Source: Pseudomonas abietaniphila (GTDB lineage: Bacteria; Pseudomonadota; Gammaproteobacteria; Pseudomonadales; Pseudomonadaceae). Taken from it: a stretch of 64,000 nucleotides of DNA. The translations under genes were made by a program, and so were the position numbers. A model generated the notes under the pieces. The model had not been told where the DNA came from. It saw nothing but the letters and a program-made list of their open reading frames with translations, and made no database searches. The stretch is from NCBI RefSeq assembly GCF_039697315.1, contig NZ_CP155619.1, positions 4,588,001 through 4,652,000 of the forward strand, given 5' to 3'. Positions 47,254-54,655 of this stretch are shown here, piece after piece (positions within the stretch are counted from its first letter, which is position 1; each line of letters opens with the position of its first letter).

Positions 47254-47631
47254 TCAACCCACATCAATCTCCACCACGTCCCCCGCTAATCGCGCGGGCC
47301 ATGTGCGCAGCTTCAAGGCAGGATCCTCAAGGCAGGTTCCGTCTTCCAATCGATAATGCTGCTTATACAGCGGCGACGCGATCACCAGATCGCCCGCCAG
47401 GCTGCCGACCAAACCACGACCGATCACGTTCACTCCCGACACCGGATCACGGTTTTCCACGGCGAACAGTTGTGGTGTGCCGCTGATCGAGGCGACGTAG
47501 AACAGTGCCACCTGGGTATTGCCCACCAGCGCCACGACGCCGGAATTGAGGACCAGGTCCTGACGGGCGCACACGGCGCGCCAGGCGTGGGTTTGAGGCA
47601 TGTCCATCATCAGCGCATTGGCCTGGCTCAT
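47254..47631 (-). CDS. nirD: Nitrite reductase small subunit
   Basis: 125 residues, Rieske-like fold of the NADH-dependent assimilatory nitrite reductase. VALFYV, FAVENRDPVSG and GSLAGDLVIASPLYKQHY match NirD; the Rieske cysteines are absent, as is normal for this subunit. ATG 47631 overlaps the nirB stop by four bases. Last gene of the nirBD transcript; unlike P. aeruginosa, no nasA or cobA follows. Confidence 0.93.
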   Translation of the reverse strand: MSQANALMMDMPQTHAWRAVCARQDLVLNSGVVALVGNTQVALFYVASISGTPQLFAVENRDPVSGVNVIGRGLVGSLAGDLVIASPLYKQHYRLEDGTCLEDPALKLRTWPARLAGDVVEIDVG

Positions 47632-50186
47632 CGTGCGATCTCCGCAACAGGAATAAGGTTGAGTTCATTGGCCCGCGCCGGGCGGCGCTGGCTGCGTTCC
47701 TTGACGAAATGAATGTCCGGGTCGGCGCTCTTGTCGTTGACGAAGGTGCGGAAGCGTTTCAGTTTCTCGGGGCTCTTCAGTGCGTTGGCCCATTCGCATT
47801 CATAACGGTCCACGACCAGTTGCATTTGCTCCTCCAGCTCGGCGGCCAGCCCAAGGCTGTCGTCGATGACCACGGCTTTCAGGTAATCCAGGCCCCCTTC
47901 CAGCGATTCGCGCCAGACAGAGGTACGCTGCAGCTTGTCGGCGGTGCGGATGTAGAACATCAGCACACGGTCGATGTAGCGAATCAGCGTCTCGTCGTCC
48001 AGGTCGGTGGCGAACAGCTCGGCATGGCGTGGACGCATGCCGCCGTTGCCGCAGACGTACAGGTTCCAGCCGTTCTCCGTGGCGATGACGCCGATGTCCT
48101 TGCTCTGCGCTTCGGCGCATTCGCGGGTGCAACCGGACACTGCGAATTTCAGCTTGTGCGGCGAGCGAAGGCCCTTGTAACGGTCCTCGATGGTCAGCGC
48201 CATTTGCACGCTGTCCTGCACGCCATACCGGCACCAGGTGCTGCCGACGCAGGATTTCACCGTTCGCGTCGACTTGCCGTAGGCATGCCCGGTCTCGAAA
48301 CCGGCCGCGATCAACTCGGCCCAGATGTCCGGCAACTCATGCAATTGCGCACCAAACAGGTCGATGCGCTGACCGCCCGTGATTTTGGTGTACAGGTCGT
48401 ATTTCTTCGCCACCGCGCCGATGGCGATCAGGCCATCCGGCGTGATTTCACCGGCCGGAATCCGTGGCACCACCGAATACGTACCGTTCTTTTGCATATT
48501 CGCCATGAAAGTGTCGTTGGTGTCCTGCAAGGGGACCAGCGAAGGGTCCATGATCGGCTTGTTCCAGCACGATGCAAGGATGGAGCCGACAACCGGTTTG
48601 CAGATGTCGCAACCGACGTGCCCCTTGCCGTGGCGGACGAGCATCTCCTCGAAACTCTCGATATTTTCGACGCGAGCAAAGGCGTACAGCTCCTGACGCG
48701 TAAAGGCGAAGTGCTCGCACAGGCTCTTGTCGACAGCGACCCCGCGTGCGGTCAGCTCGTGTTCGAACACGCTTTTGAGCAAGGCCGAGCAGCCGCCGCA
48801 ACCGGTTGCCGCCTTGGTGCAGGCCTTGATTCCGGCAAGGTCGGTACAACCGCTGTCGATGGCCGAGCAGATCGCGCCTTTGCTGACGTTGTGGCAGGAG
48901 CAGATGGTCGCGGTGGCGGGCAACGCGTCGGCGCCCAGGGTTGGCGCGCCTTCGCTGTGGGGCAGGATCAGGCTCGACGGATCGGCCGGGAGCTTGATGC
49001 CGTTCTGCGCGTATTGCAGCAGCGTGTCGTAAAAGCTGTTGTCTCCGACCAGCACCGCGCCCAGCACCTGCTTGCCGTCGGCAGACACCACCAGACGTCG
49101 ATAAGTGGCTGTGGCCTCGTCGATAAAGCGATAGCTGCGCGCGCCGGTCAGGGCGCCATGGGCATCGCCGATAGACCCGACATCGACGCCGAGCAGCTTG
49201 AGTTTGGTTGACATGTCAGCGCCGAAGAACGGCTCGGCGTCCTGATCGCATAGCTGTGCCGCGACGTTACGCGCCATCTGATACCCCGGAGCGACCAGAC
49301 CGAACACGCTGCCGTTCCACGCTGCGCATTCGCCGATGGCAAAGATATCGGCGTCGCTGGTGCGGCAGTGTTCGTCAATGGCGATTCCACCGCGCGGACC
49401 AAGCGCCAGCTCGCACTGGCGGGCGAGGGCGTCTTGTGGCCGAATCCCGGCCGAGAACACGATCAGGTCGGTTTCAAGGAACTCCTCGCCCGCGAAGTTC
49501 ATGCGGTAGCGGTATTCCTCGCCTGCGCTGATTGATTGAGTGGCGCGAGAGAGATGCACGCCGACGCCCAGCGCTTCGATGCGGGCCTTGAGGGCTGCGC
49601 CGCCAAAGTCGTCCAGCTGCACGGGCATCAGACGCGGGGCGAACTCCACCACATGGGCTTCGAGGCCCAGGGATTTCAACGCATTGGCCGCTTCAAGTCC
49701 GAGCAGACCGCCGCCGACCACGACACCGCGTTTGGCATGGGTGGCAGCGGCGCGAATGGTGTCCAGATCGTCCAGCGTGCGGTACACAAGACGCGAATGG
49801 CCTTCGGCGCCTTCGATGGGCGGCACGAACGGATAAGAGCCGGTCGCGAGCACCAGTTTGTCGTAGGCAAAGCAGCCTTTGGAGGTGATGACTTCGCGGC
49901 GGCCGCGGTCGATCTCCAGCACCGGTACGCCCAGGTGCAGCGTCAGGCCGGGGTGTTCATATAAAGAAGCAGCGCTGAGGGCCAGTGACTCGGCATCGCG
50001 CCCGCCGAAGTACTCGGACAGGTGGACGCGGTCATAGGCGCGCTGGCCTTCTTCGCCGAACACATGGATGCGATAGCGCTCGAGGGCACCGGCGGCGATC
50101 AGTTGTTCGACGCAGTGGTGACCGACCATCCCGTTGCCAACGACGATCAGTGTTTGCACATCGTGAAGTGGGGCTGTGGTGTTCAT
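47628..50186 (-). CDS. nirB: Assimilatory nitrite reductase large subunit
   Basis: 852 residues; reduces nitrite to ammonium with NADH in the cytoplasm. Domains: FAD loop LIVVGNGMVGHHC, NAD loop VVGGGLLGLEAANAL, a BFD-type [2Fe-2S] region (CSCHNVSKGAICS ... CTKAATGCGGCS) near residues 415-465, then siroheme/[4Fe-4S] ligands CVGSTWC and CTREC near residues 650-690. Starts at ATG 50186, about 40 bases after the T-run of a leader terminator. Regulated, by the leader evidence, through sigma-54 and antitermination. Confidence 0.96.
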   Translation of the reverse strand: MNTTAPLHDVQTLIVVGNGMVGHHCVEQLIAAGALERYRIHVFGEEGQRAYDRVHLSEYFGGRDAESLALSAASLYEHPGLTLHLGVPVLEIDRGRREVITSKGCFAYDKLVLATGSYPFVPPIEGAEGHSRLVYRTLDDLDTIRAAATHAKRGVVVGGGLLGLEAANALKSLGLEAHVVEFAPRLMPVQLDDFGGAALKARIEALGVGVHLSRATQSISAGEEYRYRMNFAGEEFLETDLIVFSAGIRPQDALARQCELALGPRGGIAIDEHCRTSDADIFAIGECAAWNGSVFGLVAPGYQMARNVAAQLCDQDAEPFFGADMSTKLKLLGVDVGSIGDAHGALTGARSYRFIDEATATYRRLVVSADGKQVLGAVLVGDNSFYDTLLQYAQNGIKLPADPSSLILPHSEGAPTLGADALPATATICSCHNVSKGAICSAIDSGCTDLAGIKACTKAATGCGGCSALLKSVFEHELTARGVAVDKSLCEHFAFTRQELYAFARVENIESFEEMLVRHGKGHVGCDICKPVVGSILASCWNKPIMDPSLVPLQDTNDTFMANMQKNGTYSVVPRIPAGEITPDGLIAIGAVAKKYDLYTKITGGQRIDLFGAQLHELPDIWAELIAAGFETGHAYGKSTRTVKSCVGSTWCRYGVQDSVQMALTIEDRYKGLRSPHKLKFAVSGCTRECAEAQSKDIGVIATENGWNLYVCGNGGMRPRHAELFATDLDDETLIRYIDRVLMFYIRTADKLQRTSVWRESLEGGLDYLKAVVIDDSLGLAAELEEQMQLVVDRYECEWANALKSPEKLKRFRTFVNDKSADPDIHFVKERSQRRPARANELNLIPVAEIAR

Positions 50187-50226
50187 ATCGAGTCCCGGCC
50201 AAGGCCAATCAGGTTTTTTGAAAGCA

Positions 50227-50267
50227 AAAAAAAGGCGCCCGGAACCGTTCGGTTCCAGGCGCCTTTG
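50227..50267 (-). terminator. Leader terminator upstream of nirB
   Basis: On the minus strand, AAAGGCGCC-T-GGAACC, loop GAAC, GGTTCC-G-GGCGCC, followed by eight T. It lies in the untranslated leader, so nirB needs readthrough; its 5' arm overlaps hairpin P2. Confidence 0.9.
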
Positions 50268-50313
50268 CCTGTTCTTTTATGGGTTGTCACTCGACCACAG
50301 TGTCGGCACAACC
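50257..50313 (-). promoter_or_regulatory. ANTAR-type dual hexaloop antiterminator, nirBD leader
   Basis: P1 (50313-50282): stem GGTTGT/ACAACC with inner CGAC/GTCG closing a six-base loop ACTGTG. A 9-base linker follows. P2 (50272-50257): CAGGC/GCCTG closing loop AAAGGC. Both loops have A1 and G4, the signature bound by ANTAR proteins such as NasT. P2 uses AAAGGCGCCT, also the terminator 5' arm, so P2 and the terminator are exclusive. Confidence 0.75.
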
Positions 50314-50403
50314 TGTAGAGCCCATCGCCGTGTGGCGCGGACGATCATCGTTGACCGACCAGGGCTGCCCACCGCGCATTCGGGTTGGGCTTGAAAGGGA
50401 TGA

Positions 50404-50419
50404 AGCAATGGGTGTGCCA
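50404..50419 (-). promoter_or_regulatory. Sigma-54 promoter of nirBD
   Basis: On the minus strand, TGGCACA-N4-TTGCT, with GG and GC ten bases apart. Start expected near 50393, giving a leader of about 207 bases. Points to NtrC control by nitrogen limitation. Confidence 0.75.
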
Positions 50420-50441
50420 GTTGTGGACGCAGTGCGATCAG

Positions 50442-50584
50442 TGTAGGAGCGTGGCTTGTCCCGCGATCGGCGGGGAACCCGTCGTGAAGCCTGTGGACGC
50501 AGTCAGCCCAATACACCCTGTTAATCAGATTGACTTCGCGGCAGATCGTCCGGATGCGGCCCAGAGACAGGCCACGCTCCTACA
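50442..50584. repeat. REP pair, class C, chimeric right arm, between nirB and nasA
   Basis: TGTAGGAGCGTGGCTTGTCC at the left and GGCCACGCTCCTACA at the right, 143 bases. The right arm carries TCCGGATGCGGCCCAGA (50549-50565). It separates the two sigma-54 promoters. Confidence 0.85.
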
Positions 50585-50598
50585 AGGGATAGCGTATG

Positions 50599-50613
50599 GC
50601 ACGCAAACGGTGC
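50599..50613. promoter_or_regulatory. Candidate NtrC site
   Basis: GCAC-N7-GTGC, the spacing of the NtrC dyad, 131 bases upstream of the nasA -24 element and 180 from that of nirB. A single half-consensus dyad, so moderate support. Confidence 0.45.
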
Positions 50614-50743
50614 GATTTCGTGAGGTTCGCCCCATTGCGAGGCCGAAATGCAAGTGTCGGTCGCTGCCTTGCTTTCCAGCCAGAGCGCCTTTGTACACGC
50701 CACCGCCAGCCACTCGCACTCGCTTCAAGGCCTCCCATCAGGC

Positions 50744-50759
50744 TGGCCTGTCCTTTGCA
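50744..50759 (+). promoter_or_regulatory. Sigma-54 promoter of nasA
   Basis: TGGCCTG-N4-TTGCA with GG and GC ten bases apart. Start expected near 50770, only about five bases before the first leader hairpin. Confidence 0.75.
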
Positions 50760-50774
50760 GTCATCCTTTATATA

Positions 50775-50817
50775 GGCAGTCAACGCCGATTGCCCTCTTC
50801 ACGACAAAGGCGCCGTG
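50775..50817 (+). promoter_or_regulatory. ANTAR-type dual hexaloop antiterminator, nasA leader
   Basis: P1 (50775-50794): GGCAGTC/GATTGCC (one G-U pair) closing loop AACGCC. Linker of 5 bases. P2 (50800-50817): CACGAC/GCCGTG (one A-C mismatch) closing loop AAAGGC. Both loops have A1 and G4. P2 includes AAAGGCGCC, the terminator 5' arm. Confidence 0.75.
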
Positions 50818-50860
50818 TGCTCCCCGTTTTTCAACGGAGGAGAACAGGGCGTCTTTTTTT
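50806..50860 (+). terminator. Leader terminator upstream of nasA
   Basis: AAAGGCGCC pairs with GGCGTCTTT (one G-U), with an inner CTCC/GGAG and CCGT/ACGG stem, then seven T. It ends 19 bases before the nasA ATG. Confidence 0.85.
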
Positions 50861-50878
50861 GGGTTCGGGAAACGGGTT

Positions 50879-53800
50879 ATGGCGAGCAACAGCGTACGAA
50901 GCGTGTGTCCTTATTGCGGTGTCGGCTGCGGCATCGTCATGCAGGTCGAGAATAACCGCGTGATCAAGGTCAGCGGAGACAAGGCGCATCCGACCAATTC
51001 CGGGCGTCTGTGCACCAAGGGCACTACCTGTGGTCAGGCGATTGCCGAATCCGGTCGGATGACGTCCGCCTACCTGCGGCATCAGCGTAGTCAGGACCCG
51101 GTGCGCAGTGATATCGACGCCGCGATCACGGAAACGGCCAGCCGCCTGCGGGGCATTCTTGATCGTGACGGACCCGATGCGCTCGCGTTCTATGTCTCGG
51201 GCCAGATGTCCTTGGAAGCGCAGTACCTGGCCAACAAGCTTGCCAAAGGTTTCGTGCGCACGAACAACATCGAATCCAACTCCCGGCTGTGCATGGCGAG
51301 CGCTGGCAGCGGTTATAAATTGTCGCTGGGTTCGGACGGTCCGCCGGGTTCCTATGACGACTTCGACAAGGCCGACCTGTTCTTTGTCATCGGCGCCAAT
51401 ATGGCCGACTGTCACCCGATCCTGTTCCTGCGCATGATGGATCGGGTCAAGGCGGGCGCAAAGCTGATCGTCGTGGACCCTCGGCGCAGCGCCACGGCGG
51501 ACAAGGCCAGCCTTTTCCTGCCCATCAAACCCGGCACCGATCTGGCGTTGCTCAACGGCCTGCTCTATCTGTTGCTGGAAAACGGCGATGTCGACACCGA
51601 CTTCATCGACGCCTTCACCCAAGGCTGGGACGTGATGCCCGAGTTCCTGGCCAATTACACGCCCGCTCACGTCGCGCAGATCACCGGGCTACCCGAGGCA
51701 GACGTTCGTCAGGCTGCCCGGATGATCGGTCTGGCGCCGGAGTGGATGAGTTGCTGGACCATGGGGCTGAACCAGAGCACCCACGGCACCTGGAACACCA
51801 ACGCGTTGTGCAACCTGCATCTGGCCACCGGCGCGATTTGTCGCCCTGGTAGCGGCCCGTTTTCGCTCACCGGTCAACCGAATGCCATGGGCGGCCGGGA
51901 AATGGGTTATATGGGCCCCGGCCTTCCGGGTCAGCGGTCGGTACTGGTTGAGGCGGATCGCTGTTTTATCGAAGACCTGTGGTCGATTCCGCGCGGCAGT
52001 CTGGATCAGACACTCGGGGGTGGCACCATCGACCTGTTCGAACAGATGCGTGACGGGCACATCAAGGCCTGCTGGATCATCTGCACCAACCCCGTGGCAA
52101 GCGTCGCCAATCGCTCGACAGTGATCCAGGCACTGCAAAAGGCTGAATTGGTGATCACTCAGGACGCGTTTCTCGACACCGAAACCAATCGCTACGCGGA
52201 CATTCTCCTGCCCGGTGCGCTGTGGGCGGAAGCGGAAGGGGTGATGATCAACTCGGAGCGCAATCTGACCCTGACTCAAAAGGCGGTCGATGCGCCGGGT
52301 GAGGCGTTGCCTGATTGGCAGATCATCGCCCGGGTCGCCTGCGAAATGGGGTTTGCCGAAAGCTTCAGCTACGCCTCGGCCGAGGACGTGTTCGAAGAAA
52401 TCAAACAGGCCTGGAACCCGAAAACCGGTTACGACATTCGTGGTGCCAGCTATGGGCGTCTTCGCGATCAGTCGCTGCAATGGCCTTGCGGCCCTGACGA
52501 CACCGGCACGCGTCACCCGATTCGCTATCTCGATAAAAGTGGCGAACCGTCAGAGCGCCCGAGGCTCGTTTTCGCGACGGACCACGGCAAGGCGGTTTTT
52601 CTGCCGCGTCCACACCTGCCGCCGGCCGAGATGCCAAACGATGCGTTTCCGATGGTGCTGAATACCGGTCGCCTGCAACACCAGTGGCACACGCTGACCA
52701 AGACCGGAAAAGTCCCGACCCTCAACAAGCTCAATCCCGGTCCTTTCGTCGAGATCCATCCGGTCGACGCAGCGGCGTTGGGCATCCGCGACAAGGACGC
52801 CGTGGAAATCCGGTCGGTGCGCGGTCAGGCGGTTCTGCCAGCCGTGGTGACCGACCGGGTGAGACCGGGTAATTGCTTTGCGCCGTTTCACTGGAACGAT
52901 GTCTACGGTGAGCACCTGGCGATCAACGCTGTCACCAGTGACGCCGTCGATCCGGTTTCGAAGCAGCCCGAATTCAAGTTCTGCGCAGTCGCGCTGCGCA
53001 AGGTTGAGCTGATCGGCCATCGTTTTCTTGATGTGCCACAGCCCGATGCGCAGACGCTGGAAGAGTCCGAAGGGGAGCCGCTGCTCACTTTGCTCTGGGC
53101 CTCGCAAACCGGCAACGCAGAGGCACTCGCCAAACGCTTCGGCACGCACCTGCGCTCATCAGGCATCCCAGTGCAGGTCGCTGCGATGGACCAATTTCCG
53201 GTGGCACGCCTGAGCGATGTCAGCCATCTCGCGTTGATCAGCAGCACCTTTGGCGACGGCGACTCGCCCGACAACGGTCAGCGGTTCTGGCAGTCGCTGA
53301 GCGAACGCCAGGAGCGGCTGGAGTCGCTGCGTTACGCCGTGCTCGCGCTGGGGGATCCGAGCTACGACCGCTTCTGCCAGCACGGCAAAAATCTCGATCA
53401 GCGACTGCTGACATTAGGGGCTTCGCCGTTGATGCCTCGTGTCGATTGTGACGGCGATTTTCAGGACCATGCCGATGGATGGTTCATGGCGCTGCAACAG
53501 GCGCTGGATCTTCCTCCCATCGACATGACCCCGCAAACGTCGAGCAGCCAACCGTCGCGTGCGCACCCTCATAACGCCAGGCTGTCGATCAACCGACGCT
53601 TGAACGGCGAGGGCGCGAGCAAGGACACACGGCAGTTTGCGCTGACGCTGGGCGACTCGGGTCTGGCTTACGAGGCAGGCGATGCGCTGGGCGTGTGGCC
53701 ACGCAATTGTCCGGCATTGATCGATGAAGTGCTCGCGTTGACGGGCCTGCGGGGCGACCAGCCCGTGAGTGTCGGCAAGGTGGGGGAAATGCCGTTGTCA

Positions 53801-54655
53801 CAGGCACTGACTTCGCAATTCGAAATCGCAAGACCCACGGCAGAAGCGCTGGGTTTCATTGCCGAGCGCAGCGGCAGTAGCGAGCTTAAAACCTTGCTGA
53901 CCGAGCCGTTCAACAGCGAGTTGAAGGACTGGCTATGGGGAAGGCAACTGGCGGACGTGATTCGGGAGTTTCCGCTGAGCTGTTCAGCGCAGGAGTTGCT
54001 GGACCACCTCAAGCCGCTTCAGCCCCGGTTGTACTCCATCGCATCCAGCGCAAAGGCACATCCCGATGAGGTTCATCTGACGGTTTCTGCCGTGCGATAC
54101 GGCAAGCGCAAGGGCGTGTCCTCAACCTTTCTCGCCGACCGTGCCGGTGACGGCGAGGTGCCGATTTTCCTGCAACCGACCCAGCACTTTCGCGTACCGG
54201 TCGAGGGTGACGTGCCGATGATCATGATCGGGCCCGGCACTGGCGTGGCACCGTTCAGGGCGTTTCTGCAGGAGCGGCGCATGCGTGCCGATCGCGGACG
54301 CAACTGGCTGTTCTTCGGTGAGCAGCATGCGGCCACGGATTTCTACTACCGCGACGAGCTCGAAGGCATGCAAAAAGACGGTTTGCTCACGCACCTGAGC
54401 CTGGCGTTTTCCCGTGATCAGGCCGAGAAGATCTACGTCCAGCATCGCATCCGCGAACAGGGCGCGGAACTGTGGCGGTGGTTGCAGGACGGCGCGCGCA
54501 TCTACGTGTGCGGGGATGCGACGCACATGGCCAGTGACGTTGATCAGGCATTGCGCGAGGTCATCGTTGCCCATGGCGGGATGAGCACAGAGCGTGCCGC
54601 CGAGCATCTGCGAGTGATGGCCGGCGAGAAGCGCTATGTGCGGGACGTTTATTAA
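50879..54655 (+). CDS. nasA: Assimilatory nitrate reductase fused to CysJ-like flavoprotein
   Basis: 1258 residues. Residues 1-60 carry a [4Fe-4S] site (CPYCGVGC ... RLCTKG), followed by the Mo-bis-MGD catalytic region and, about 600-720, the molybdopterin dinucleotide C-terminal domain (NTGRLQHQWHT). A flavodoxin domain begins near 735 (LLWASQTGNAEALAKRFG), then an FAD/NADPH reductase of the CysJ type (RLYSIASSAK; MIGPGTGVAPFRAFLQERR; CGDATHMASDVDQAL). It should pass electrons from NADPH through FAD and FMN to the Mo centre and so need no separate NasB-type reductase. ATG 50879; the frame upstream is the leader, not protein. Confidence 0.92.
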   Translation: MASNSVRSVCPYCGVGCGIVMQVENNRVIKVSGDKAHPTNSGRLCTKGTTCGQAIAESGRMTSAYLRHQRSQDPVRSDIDAAITETASRLRGILDRDGPDALAFYVSGQMSLEAQYLANKLAKGFVRTNNIESNSRLCMASAGSGYKLSLGSDGPPGSYDDFDKADLFFVIGANMADCHPILFLRMMDRVKAGAKLIVVDPRRSATADKASLFLPIKPGTDLALLNGLLYLLLENGDVDTDFIDAFTQGWDVMPEFLANYTPAHVAQITGLPEADVRQAARMIGLAPEWMSCWTMGLNQSTHGTWNTNALCNLHLATGAICRPGSGPFSLTGQPNAMGGREMGYMGPGLPGQRSVLVEADRCFIEDLWSIPRGSLDQTLGGGTIDLFEQMRDGHIKACWIICTNPVASVANRSTVIQALQKAELVITQDAFLDTETNRYADILLPGALWAEAEGVMINSERNLTLTQKAVDAPGEALPDWQIIARVACEMGFAESFSYASAEDVFEEIKQAWNPKTGYDIRGASYGRLRDQSLQWPCGPDDTGTRHPIRYLDKSGEPSERPRLVFATDHGKAVFLPRPHLPPAEMPNDAFPMVLNTGRLQHQWHTLTKTGKVPTLNKLNPGPFVEIHPVDAAALGIRDKDAVEIRSVRGQAVLPAVVTDRVRPGNCFAPFHWNDVYGEHLAINAVTSDAVDPVSKQPEFKFCAVALRKVELIGHRFLDVPQPDAQTLEESEGEPLLTLLWASQTGNAEALAKRFGTHLRSSGIPVQVAAMDQFPVARLSDVSHLALISSTFGDGDSPDNGQRFWQSLSERQERLESLRYAVLALGDPSYDRFCQHGKNLDQRLLTLGASPLMPRVDCDGDFQDHADGWFMALQQALDLPPIDMTPQTSSSQPSRAHPHNARLSINRRLNGEGASKDTRQFALTLGDSGLAYEAGDALGVWPRNCPALIDEVLALTGLRGDQPVSVGKVGEMPLSQALTSQFEIARPTAEALGFIAERSGSSELKTLLTEPFNSELKDWLWGRQLADVIREFPLSCSAQELLDHLKPLQPRLYSIASSAKAHPDEVHLTVSAVRYGKRKGVSSTFLADRAGDGEVPIFLQPTQHFRVPVEGDVPMIMIGPGTGVAPFRAFLQERRMRADRGRNWLFFGEQHAATDFYYRDELEGMQKDGLLTHLSLAFSRDQAEKIYVQHRIREQGAELWRWLQDGARIYVCGDATHMASDVDQALREVIVAHGGMSTERAAEHLRVMAGEKRYVRDVY

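Follow-up and report, generated by a model that had tools for sequence, protein, structure and literature searches.

The window analyzed here is a 64,000-nucleotide stretch of the Pseudomonas abietaniphila genome (NZ_CP155619.1, forward-strand positions 4,588,001 to 4,652,000), and it contains divergently oriented genes for assimilatory nitrate and nitrite reduction. On the minus strand, nirB (47628 to 50186) encodes an 852-aa nitrite reductase large subunit with the Pfam domains Pyr_redox_2, Fer2_BFD, NIR_SIR_ferr, and NIR_SIR, and the open reading frame of nirD (47254 to 47631) encodes the small subunit with a Rieske_2 domain. On the plus strand, nasC (50879 to 54655) encodes an assimilatory nitrate reductase of 1258 aa, in which molybdopterin domains are followed by a C-terminal flavodoxin/FAD/NAD reductase part. 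Replacement of the nitrate reductase gene was considered and rejected, because its in-frame identity to divergent relatives is 70% to 94% over the part compared.

According to sequence and predicted fold, each strand of the nirB/nitrate reductase intergenic region carries a -24/-12 element, hairpins with six-base loops that have A at the first and G at the fourth position (A1/G4), and an intrinsic terminator. The sigma-54 promoter of nirBD, TGGCACACCCATTGC, lies at 50405 to 50419 on the minus strand and matches a TGGCA...TGC pattern found in 60/60 divergent loci, and that of the nitrate reductase gene, TGGCCTGTCCTTTGC, lies at 50744 to 50758 on the plus strand, at the start of a match to the Rfam narK RNA. 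The sequence thereby bears out the initial annotation, which had placed such an element on either strand and had described a terminator that has its 5' arm in common with the second hairpin; on both strands the terminator does reuse AAAGGCGCC of the last hairpin (P2). Candidate transcription start sites would be 50393 (minus) and 50770 (plus), about 12 nt beyond the GC of each -12 element. Both leaders folded better than all 200 dinucleotide shuffles (z = -3.89 and -4.89), and the spaced pattern TGGC-N7-TTGC ... AACG ... AAWGRCGYC, which was composed after the leaders had been viewed, has a single match in the window and none in 100 shuffles.

In the plus-strand leader, the first hairpin (P1, 50775 to 50794) pairs GGCAGUC with GAUUGCC around the loop AACGCC, and P2 (50800 to 50817) pairs CACGAC with GCCGUG around AAAGGC with one A-C mismatch; P2 is identical in most of the divergent loci listed. 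The predicted terminator overlaps P2, its arms spanning 50803 to 50853, followed by seven T up to 50860. Two six-base A1/G4 loops and a P2-overlapping terminator are the features of a leader recognized by ANTAR proteins of the NasT type. The leader also matches the Rfam narK RNA (RF03032) at 50745 to 50816 with 58.6 bits, above the cut-off of 43.2 (E = 2e-8 in the 64-kb scan). As aligned, the model starts at the sigma-54 -24/-12 sequence, and only the first hairpin is paired in it, P2 being part of the consensus but unpaired. The A-C mismatch of the plus-strand P2 stem recurs in most relatives, although in the genome's narK leader the stem reads as fully paired at that point.

The minus-strand (nirBD) leader has three A1/G4 hexaloop hairpins, so that the annotated two hairpins per strand hold for the plus leader, while the minus leader has a third one further upstream. 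This distal hairpin (50343 to 50356) pairs GGUC with GAUC around AACGAU and sits in a distal domain enclosed by GCCC/GGGC (50320 to 50365, from sequence and predicted fold). A predicted middle hairpin (50282 to 50313), the inner part of which (50305 to 50292) pairs CGAC with GUCG around ACUGUG, ends 10 nt ahead of P2 (50256 to 50271), in which CAGGC and GCCUG enclose AAAGGC. The terminator (50226 to 50266) overlaps P2 and consists of a 16-bp stem and a U run. The second hairpins of the two strands had been called near-identical; they do have the loop and the GCC arm in common, and the internal A-C mismatch sets the plus-strand one apart. The weak match of the minus leader to Rfam P11 (RF00625), which we take to be the same RNA as PA14 P11, aligns at 50234 to 50431 and covers the sigma-54 element and the P2/terminator part; at 25.4 bits it is below the cut-off of 70, and the Rfam scan of the region gave no narK RNA match on this leader. 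RF03032 and RF00625 both contain a sigma-54 -24/-12 sequence near their 5' ends; this sequence would be expected ahead of the transcription start and hence outside the RNA that is modeled. Matches of the region to Thr_leader, ctRNA_p42d, STnc40, mir-H7, and Moco-II were below the cut-offs of these families and were dismissed.

The loops ACUGUG and AAAGGC, the 10-nt linker between their hairpins, and the P2-overlapping terminator give the minus leader the features of an ANTAR target, including a linker of 5 to 12 nt. In the predicted fold of the nascent nirBD RNA, the middle hairpin and P2 retain their six-base loops 10 nt apart, the distal loop closes further, to four bases, and the distal hairpin is about 70 nt from P2. 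The accessible part of a study of Enterococcus faecalis gives linkers of 5 to 12 nt for the eut leaders and a drastic reduction of induction when the eutP linker is shortened to 3 or lengthened to 14 nt (PMC3369931), and by this analogy the middle hairpin appears to be the better-placed partner of P2 in the window.

To follow these elements through the genus, we used 149 Pseudomonas genomes with 89 nirB loci, 28 of them with a divergent nitrate reductase gene within 1.5 to 2 kb upstream, and 80 named records (the best 80 of 447 relatives), 32 of them with such a gene. Since the genomes and the named records overlap, the locus counts contain duplicates. The double arrangement annotated in the window is real, and its description as unusual needs softening, because in 28/89 nirB loci the nitrate reductase gene is likewise divergent and has a leader of its own and because two further leaders of this type are present in the same genome. 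Both sigma-54-like promoters were found in 60/60 divergent loci, duplicates included, by search patterns less strict than the consensus. Promoter and P2 of a nirBD leader could both be located in 167/169 loci (152 distinct sequences), L068 and L117 being left out after their promoter or P2 pattern failed. The P2 loop is AAAGGC or AAAGAC in 150/152 distinct leaders, themselves retrieved by a P2 pattern, and the terminator overlaps P2 in 152/152. The distal hairpin can be anchored on TC(N6)GA in 144/152. Among the nasC leaders, a P2-overlapping terminator of six pairs followed by at least five T occurs in 50/60 divergent loci, and 10/60 failed this criterion. The hairpins and terminators of the leaders are thus kept in relatives.

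The P1 stem of nasC was compared in 37 distinct windows from 59/60 loci, with kinship uncorrected. Because the sites were picked on pairs 1 to 4, only pairs 5 and 6 are unselected; both are paired in 37/37 windows. Pair 4 occurs as A-T, C-G, G-C, G-T, and T-G, and the covariation score of the stem, in which pair 6 is invariant, was matched by 0 of 500 column shuffles. The remaining locus (L049) was left out for an A-C mismatch in the stem; its loop reads AACGCA by eye. In the distal stem of nirBD, pairs 3 and 4 are paired in 99/99 distinct windows, pair 5 in 91/99 (variants C-G, T-A, and G-C), and pairs 6 to 9 in 51, 44, 19, and 48 of the 99. These counts are weaker than they look, because the site was anchored on the two inner pairs and, among several candidates, ranked by the length of its stem with extra credit for an A1/G4 loop, so that site choice favors pairing. 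A lack of stem covariation had been named as evidence against the annotated leaders; within these site-selection caveats, neither the plus-strand P1 stem nor the minus-strand distal stem speaks against them.

Aligned to 15 named near relatives, the window shows a conserved block between the two promoters, around a GGCAC-N7-GTGCG dyad (50598 to 50614), and the remainder of the inter-promoter stretch is mostly variable and consists in part of REP-like repeats. From the NtrC consensus, we take this dyad to be a putative NtrC site, positioned upstream of each -24/-12 element as expected at NtrC-activated sigma-54 promoters and a candidate for use by both. As a control, glnK (the sole P-II gene) and glnA (the top scorer among six genes of the glutamine synthetase family) in the same genome each have one such dyad in the stretch examined, which precedes a sigma-54 element by 91 and 89 bp, respectively. 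Near the nasS and narK promoters of this genome, the strict dyad was not found. The strict dyad is present in 13/15 named near relatives and in 16/60 divergent rows (duplicates included) and is absent from 44/60, among them the near relatives L104 and L111. It is also not rare, with 2 matches in the 64-kb window compared with 3.2 expected. Between the promoters there is also an inverted 19-nt pair with 95% complementarity (50442 to 50460 and 50566 to 50584), presumably a Pseudomonas REP pair judging from its resemblance; similar words are present elsewhere in the window, and the spot of the pair varies in length among relatives.

A profile search of the genome with Pfam confirmation found a single ANTAR domain, belonging to a receiver-ANTAR protein encoded downstream of an NMT1-like protein, and no match to a NIT domain. 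By their domain features, these two proteins can be assigned as putative NasT and NasS. A narK RNA match of 74.3 bits (cut-off 43.2) lies between nasT and an MFS transporter gene, and the match before nasS, at 36.4 bits, is below the cut-off. Inspected by eye, the leaders of nasS and of the transporter each have a sigma-54 element and A1/G4 hairpins. The region upstream of nasS (L010, 3055 to 3167) also has, by eye, a terminator in addition to these elements, and nasST may therefore be opened by its own product. Since there is one ANTAR protein and narK-type leaders precede the transporter gene and nasS, NasT probably reads four leaders, that of its own operon included. In the 149 genomes (this one included, with narK RNA scored at E up to 0.001), narK RNA and an ANTAR protein are both present in 128, both absent in 15, and found singly in 5 (ANTAR only) and 1 (RNA only), a co-occurrence with a Fisher p of 1.6e-15 that is not corrected for kinship. 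The genomes with ANTAR and without narK RNA are G001, G018, G041, G051, and G147; G086 has the RNA (E = 4.2e-8) without an ANTAR match, which could be an orphan RNA or an assembly gap. The initial annotation's proposal of NasT-type control is thus supported by the narK RNA match, the single ANTAR gene beside nasS, the co-occurrence across the genus, and the conserved hairpins and terminators. These observations also suggest that NasT targets the RNA described by the Rfam narK family, the model of which would include promoter DNA. Our literature search, which left most subscription papers outside its reach, found no paper naming "narK RNA", "narK motif", or RF03032.

Reading these sequence features together, we consider it very probable that nitrate assimilation is controlled here by a divergent region with two gates, in which transcription is started by NtrC and opened by NasT. 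Binding of NtrC and NasT, antitermination, and the service of one dyad to both promoters are inferred. Under nitrogen limitation, phosphorylated NtrC at the central dyad would activate sigma-54 polymerase at both promoters, and each transcript would start with an ANTAR leader folding by default into a terminator. Nitrate or nitrite would release NasT from NasS, and the freed NasT would bind the P1/P2 hexaloop hairpins on either side, blocking the terminators of both leaders and opening nitrate reductase and nitrite reductase together. The same NasT would probably open the nasST and MFS (narK-like) transporter leaders too. Since both leaders are probably opened by one nitrate-responsive protein, both pathway steps would switch on together, and the operons for consecutive steps could be matched at one site by one activator and one RNA-binding protein.

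A NasT-controlled nirBD leader has reportedly been described in P. aeruginosa and P. putida (P11 / NalA; Romeo 2012, Nie 2024). The leader in the window resembles it in gene, sigma-54 promoter, and NasT-opened terminator, and differs in having an extra A1/G4 hairpin and a divergent nitrate reductase gene with its own NasT-type leader. In the part of a review available to us, NasT opens the nirBD leader NalA, transcribed from a sigma-54, NtrC-dependent promoter, for which a P. putida study is cited (PMC12830290); the parts seen of two other reports describe a P. putida nasT deletion that does not grow on nitrate (PMC7261876) and binding of NasT to the nasA leader RNA in Paracoccus (PMC3795266). 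The plus leader is a member of the Rfam narK RNA family above its curated cut-off; the family model differs from it in beginning with promoter sequence upstream of the transcript and in pairing the first hairpin only. The EutV dual-hairpin antiterminators (Ramesh 2012, PMC3369931, accessible part) likewise have two A1/G4 hexaloop hairpins with P2 overlapping the terminator; their E. faecalis eut linkers are 5 to 12 nt, whereas the leader of nirBD carries one more upstream hairpin, at some 70 nt from P2. The same text lists ANTAR matches before nitrite reductase and nitrate transporter genes. Leaders of the ANTAR type are also opened in a nitrate-dependent way by Klebsiella NasR (NIT and ANTAR domains); the genome of the window has no NIT match, and some congeners carry NasR instead of NasT. 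The literature accessible to our search, to which most subscription papers do not belong, yielded nothing on a divergent leader pair. The parts of the locus are thus members of known families, and what is new is the double divergent layout with a single candidate enhancer, the presence of three hairpins in the nirBD leader, and the turnover of hairpin loops.

Several observations count against the double gate, namely the 10/60 nasC leaders that fail the terminator test, the 44/60 rows without the strict dyad, and the distance of about 70 nt between the distal nirBD hairpin and P2, compared with the loss of induction with a 14-nt eutP linker in the accessible text of PMC3369931. The weak nasC terminators would fit a locus in which one leader alone is NasT-controlled and the other is an attenuator that has decayed or acts constitutively, as would a minus leader that is under the P11 cut-off and without a narK match. 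We regard this as quite improbable, because each of the window's two leaders has a terminator and because an upstream A1/G4 hairpin is present in 39/39 anchored nasC and 96/96 nirBD leaders from NasT-scored genomes. The weak resemblance of the minus leader to Rfam P11 raises another alternative, that the terminated leaders are mainly P11-like small RNAs and not attenuators. P11 is highly expressed in PA14 under the growth conditions of one study and acts on C. elegans behavior, but the same study, in the part available, calls it a regulator of the PA14 NirB, NirD, NasC operon (PMC12080996), and the nirBD leader is described as an attenuator in the accessible text of PMC12830290, which makes a mainly small-RNA role highly improbable. 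The resemblance does suggest that the terminated nirBD leader in P. abietaniphila would be a P11-like RNA.

Within the double gate, the alternative that deserves most weight concerns the nirBD leader, in which the distal hairpin could be the working P1 and the middle hairpin a spacer bringing it near P2. The distal hairpin is present genus-wide (144/152 anchored), all 28 short nirBD leaders have it as their sole A1/G4 hairpin ahead of P2, and 43/99 long leaders with an A1/G4 distal loop have no A1/G4 middle hairpin by the rule used. This is a serious contender with somewhat less than an even chance; against it stand the 10-nt linker of the window's middle hairpin, within the eut range of 5 to 12 nt, and the state of the middle hairpin where the distal loop has changed. 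The distal loop of the 144 anchored leaders is A1/G4 in 127 and G1/G4 in 17, and an A1/G4 middle hairpin accompanies 17/17 G1-distal leaders compared with 56/99 long A1/G4-distal ones, where shuffled linkers would yield 0.7/17 and 4.6/99. A middle hairpin was called if it had three or more pairs and was closed by C-G, a rule preferred to folding, which misreads the middle loop in some leaders. Of the 152 distinct nirBD leaders, 149 have one or more A1/G4 hairpins upstream of P2. We believe the named G1-distal leaders to belong mostly to the P. syringae group, with P. bohemica in addition. Because the G1 leaders represent few independent events, the pattern is only suggestive of turnover of the first hairpin.

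Five genomes, G001 (L182), G018 (L181), G043 (L184), G068 (L180), and G147 (L183), have a NasR-like NIT-ANTAR protein and no NasT-like match and have kept the nirBD leader. Pfam confirmed the NIT and ANTAR domains in four of them, and G068 was identified by matches in one frame. Every other leader-bearing genome of the 149 was counted as NasT, including G125, the best ANTAR match of which is weak (E = 3.6e-12). In 20 of the 80 named genomes, searched and judged by frame length and profile span, L107 (the same as G068), L109, L116, L121, and L123 look NasR-only and L114 has both regulators; 46/152 distinct nirBD leaders are outside the regulator assignment. The three nirBD leaders without an upstream A1/G4 hairpin (L075, L076, and L116) are all NasR-only, so this hairpin is missing in 3/9 distinct NasR-only leaders compared with 0/96 scored as NasT. 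The other 6/9 retain one, the distal one in L013, L109, and L090, which argues against a simple NasR reading, and according to the accessible part of PMC3369931, A1 and G4 matter for NasR too.

From these series there is a fair, though less than even, chance that nirBD has two interchangeable first hairpins before one P2, that the role of P1 has shifted between the distal and middle positions across the genus, that the need for A1/G4 in the first hairpin has relaxed where NasR took the place of NasT, and that the locus is one NtrC-started, NasT-opened two-way switch. As natural variants, in which the distal loop is changed and the middle one kept or NasT is replaced by NasR, they offer a direct way to test what the first hairpin contributes to ANTAR recognition. 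In nasC, the A1/G4 loop of P1 is kept in 39/39 anchored NasT loci, in 15/15 loci with no regulator assigned, and in the one locus with both regulators; it is lost in 4/4 NasR-only loci (three distinct loops: GACGCA, AACACA, and AAAAAC), all with the P2 loop kept. G043 and G068 each have an additional, weaker ANTAR match of another kind.
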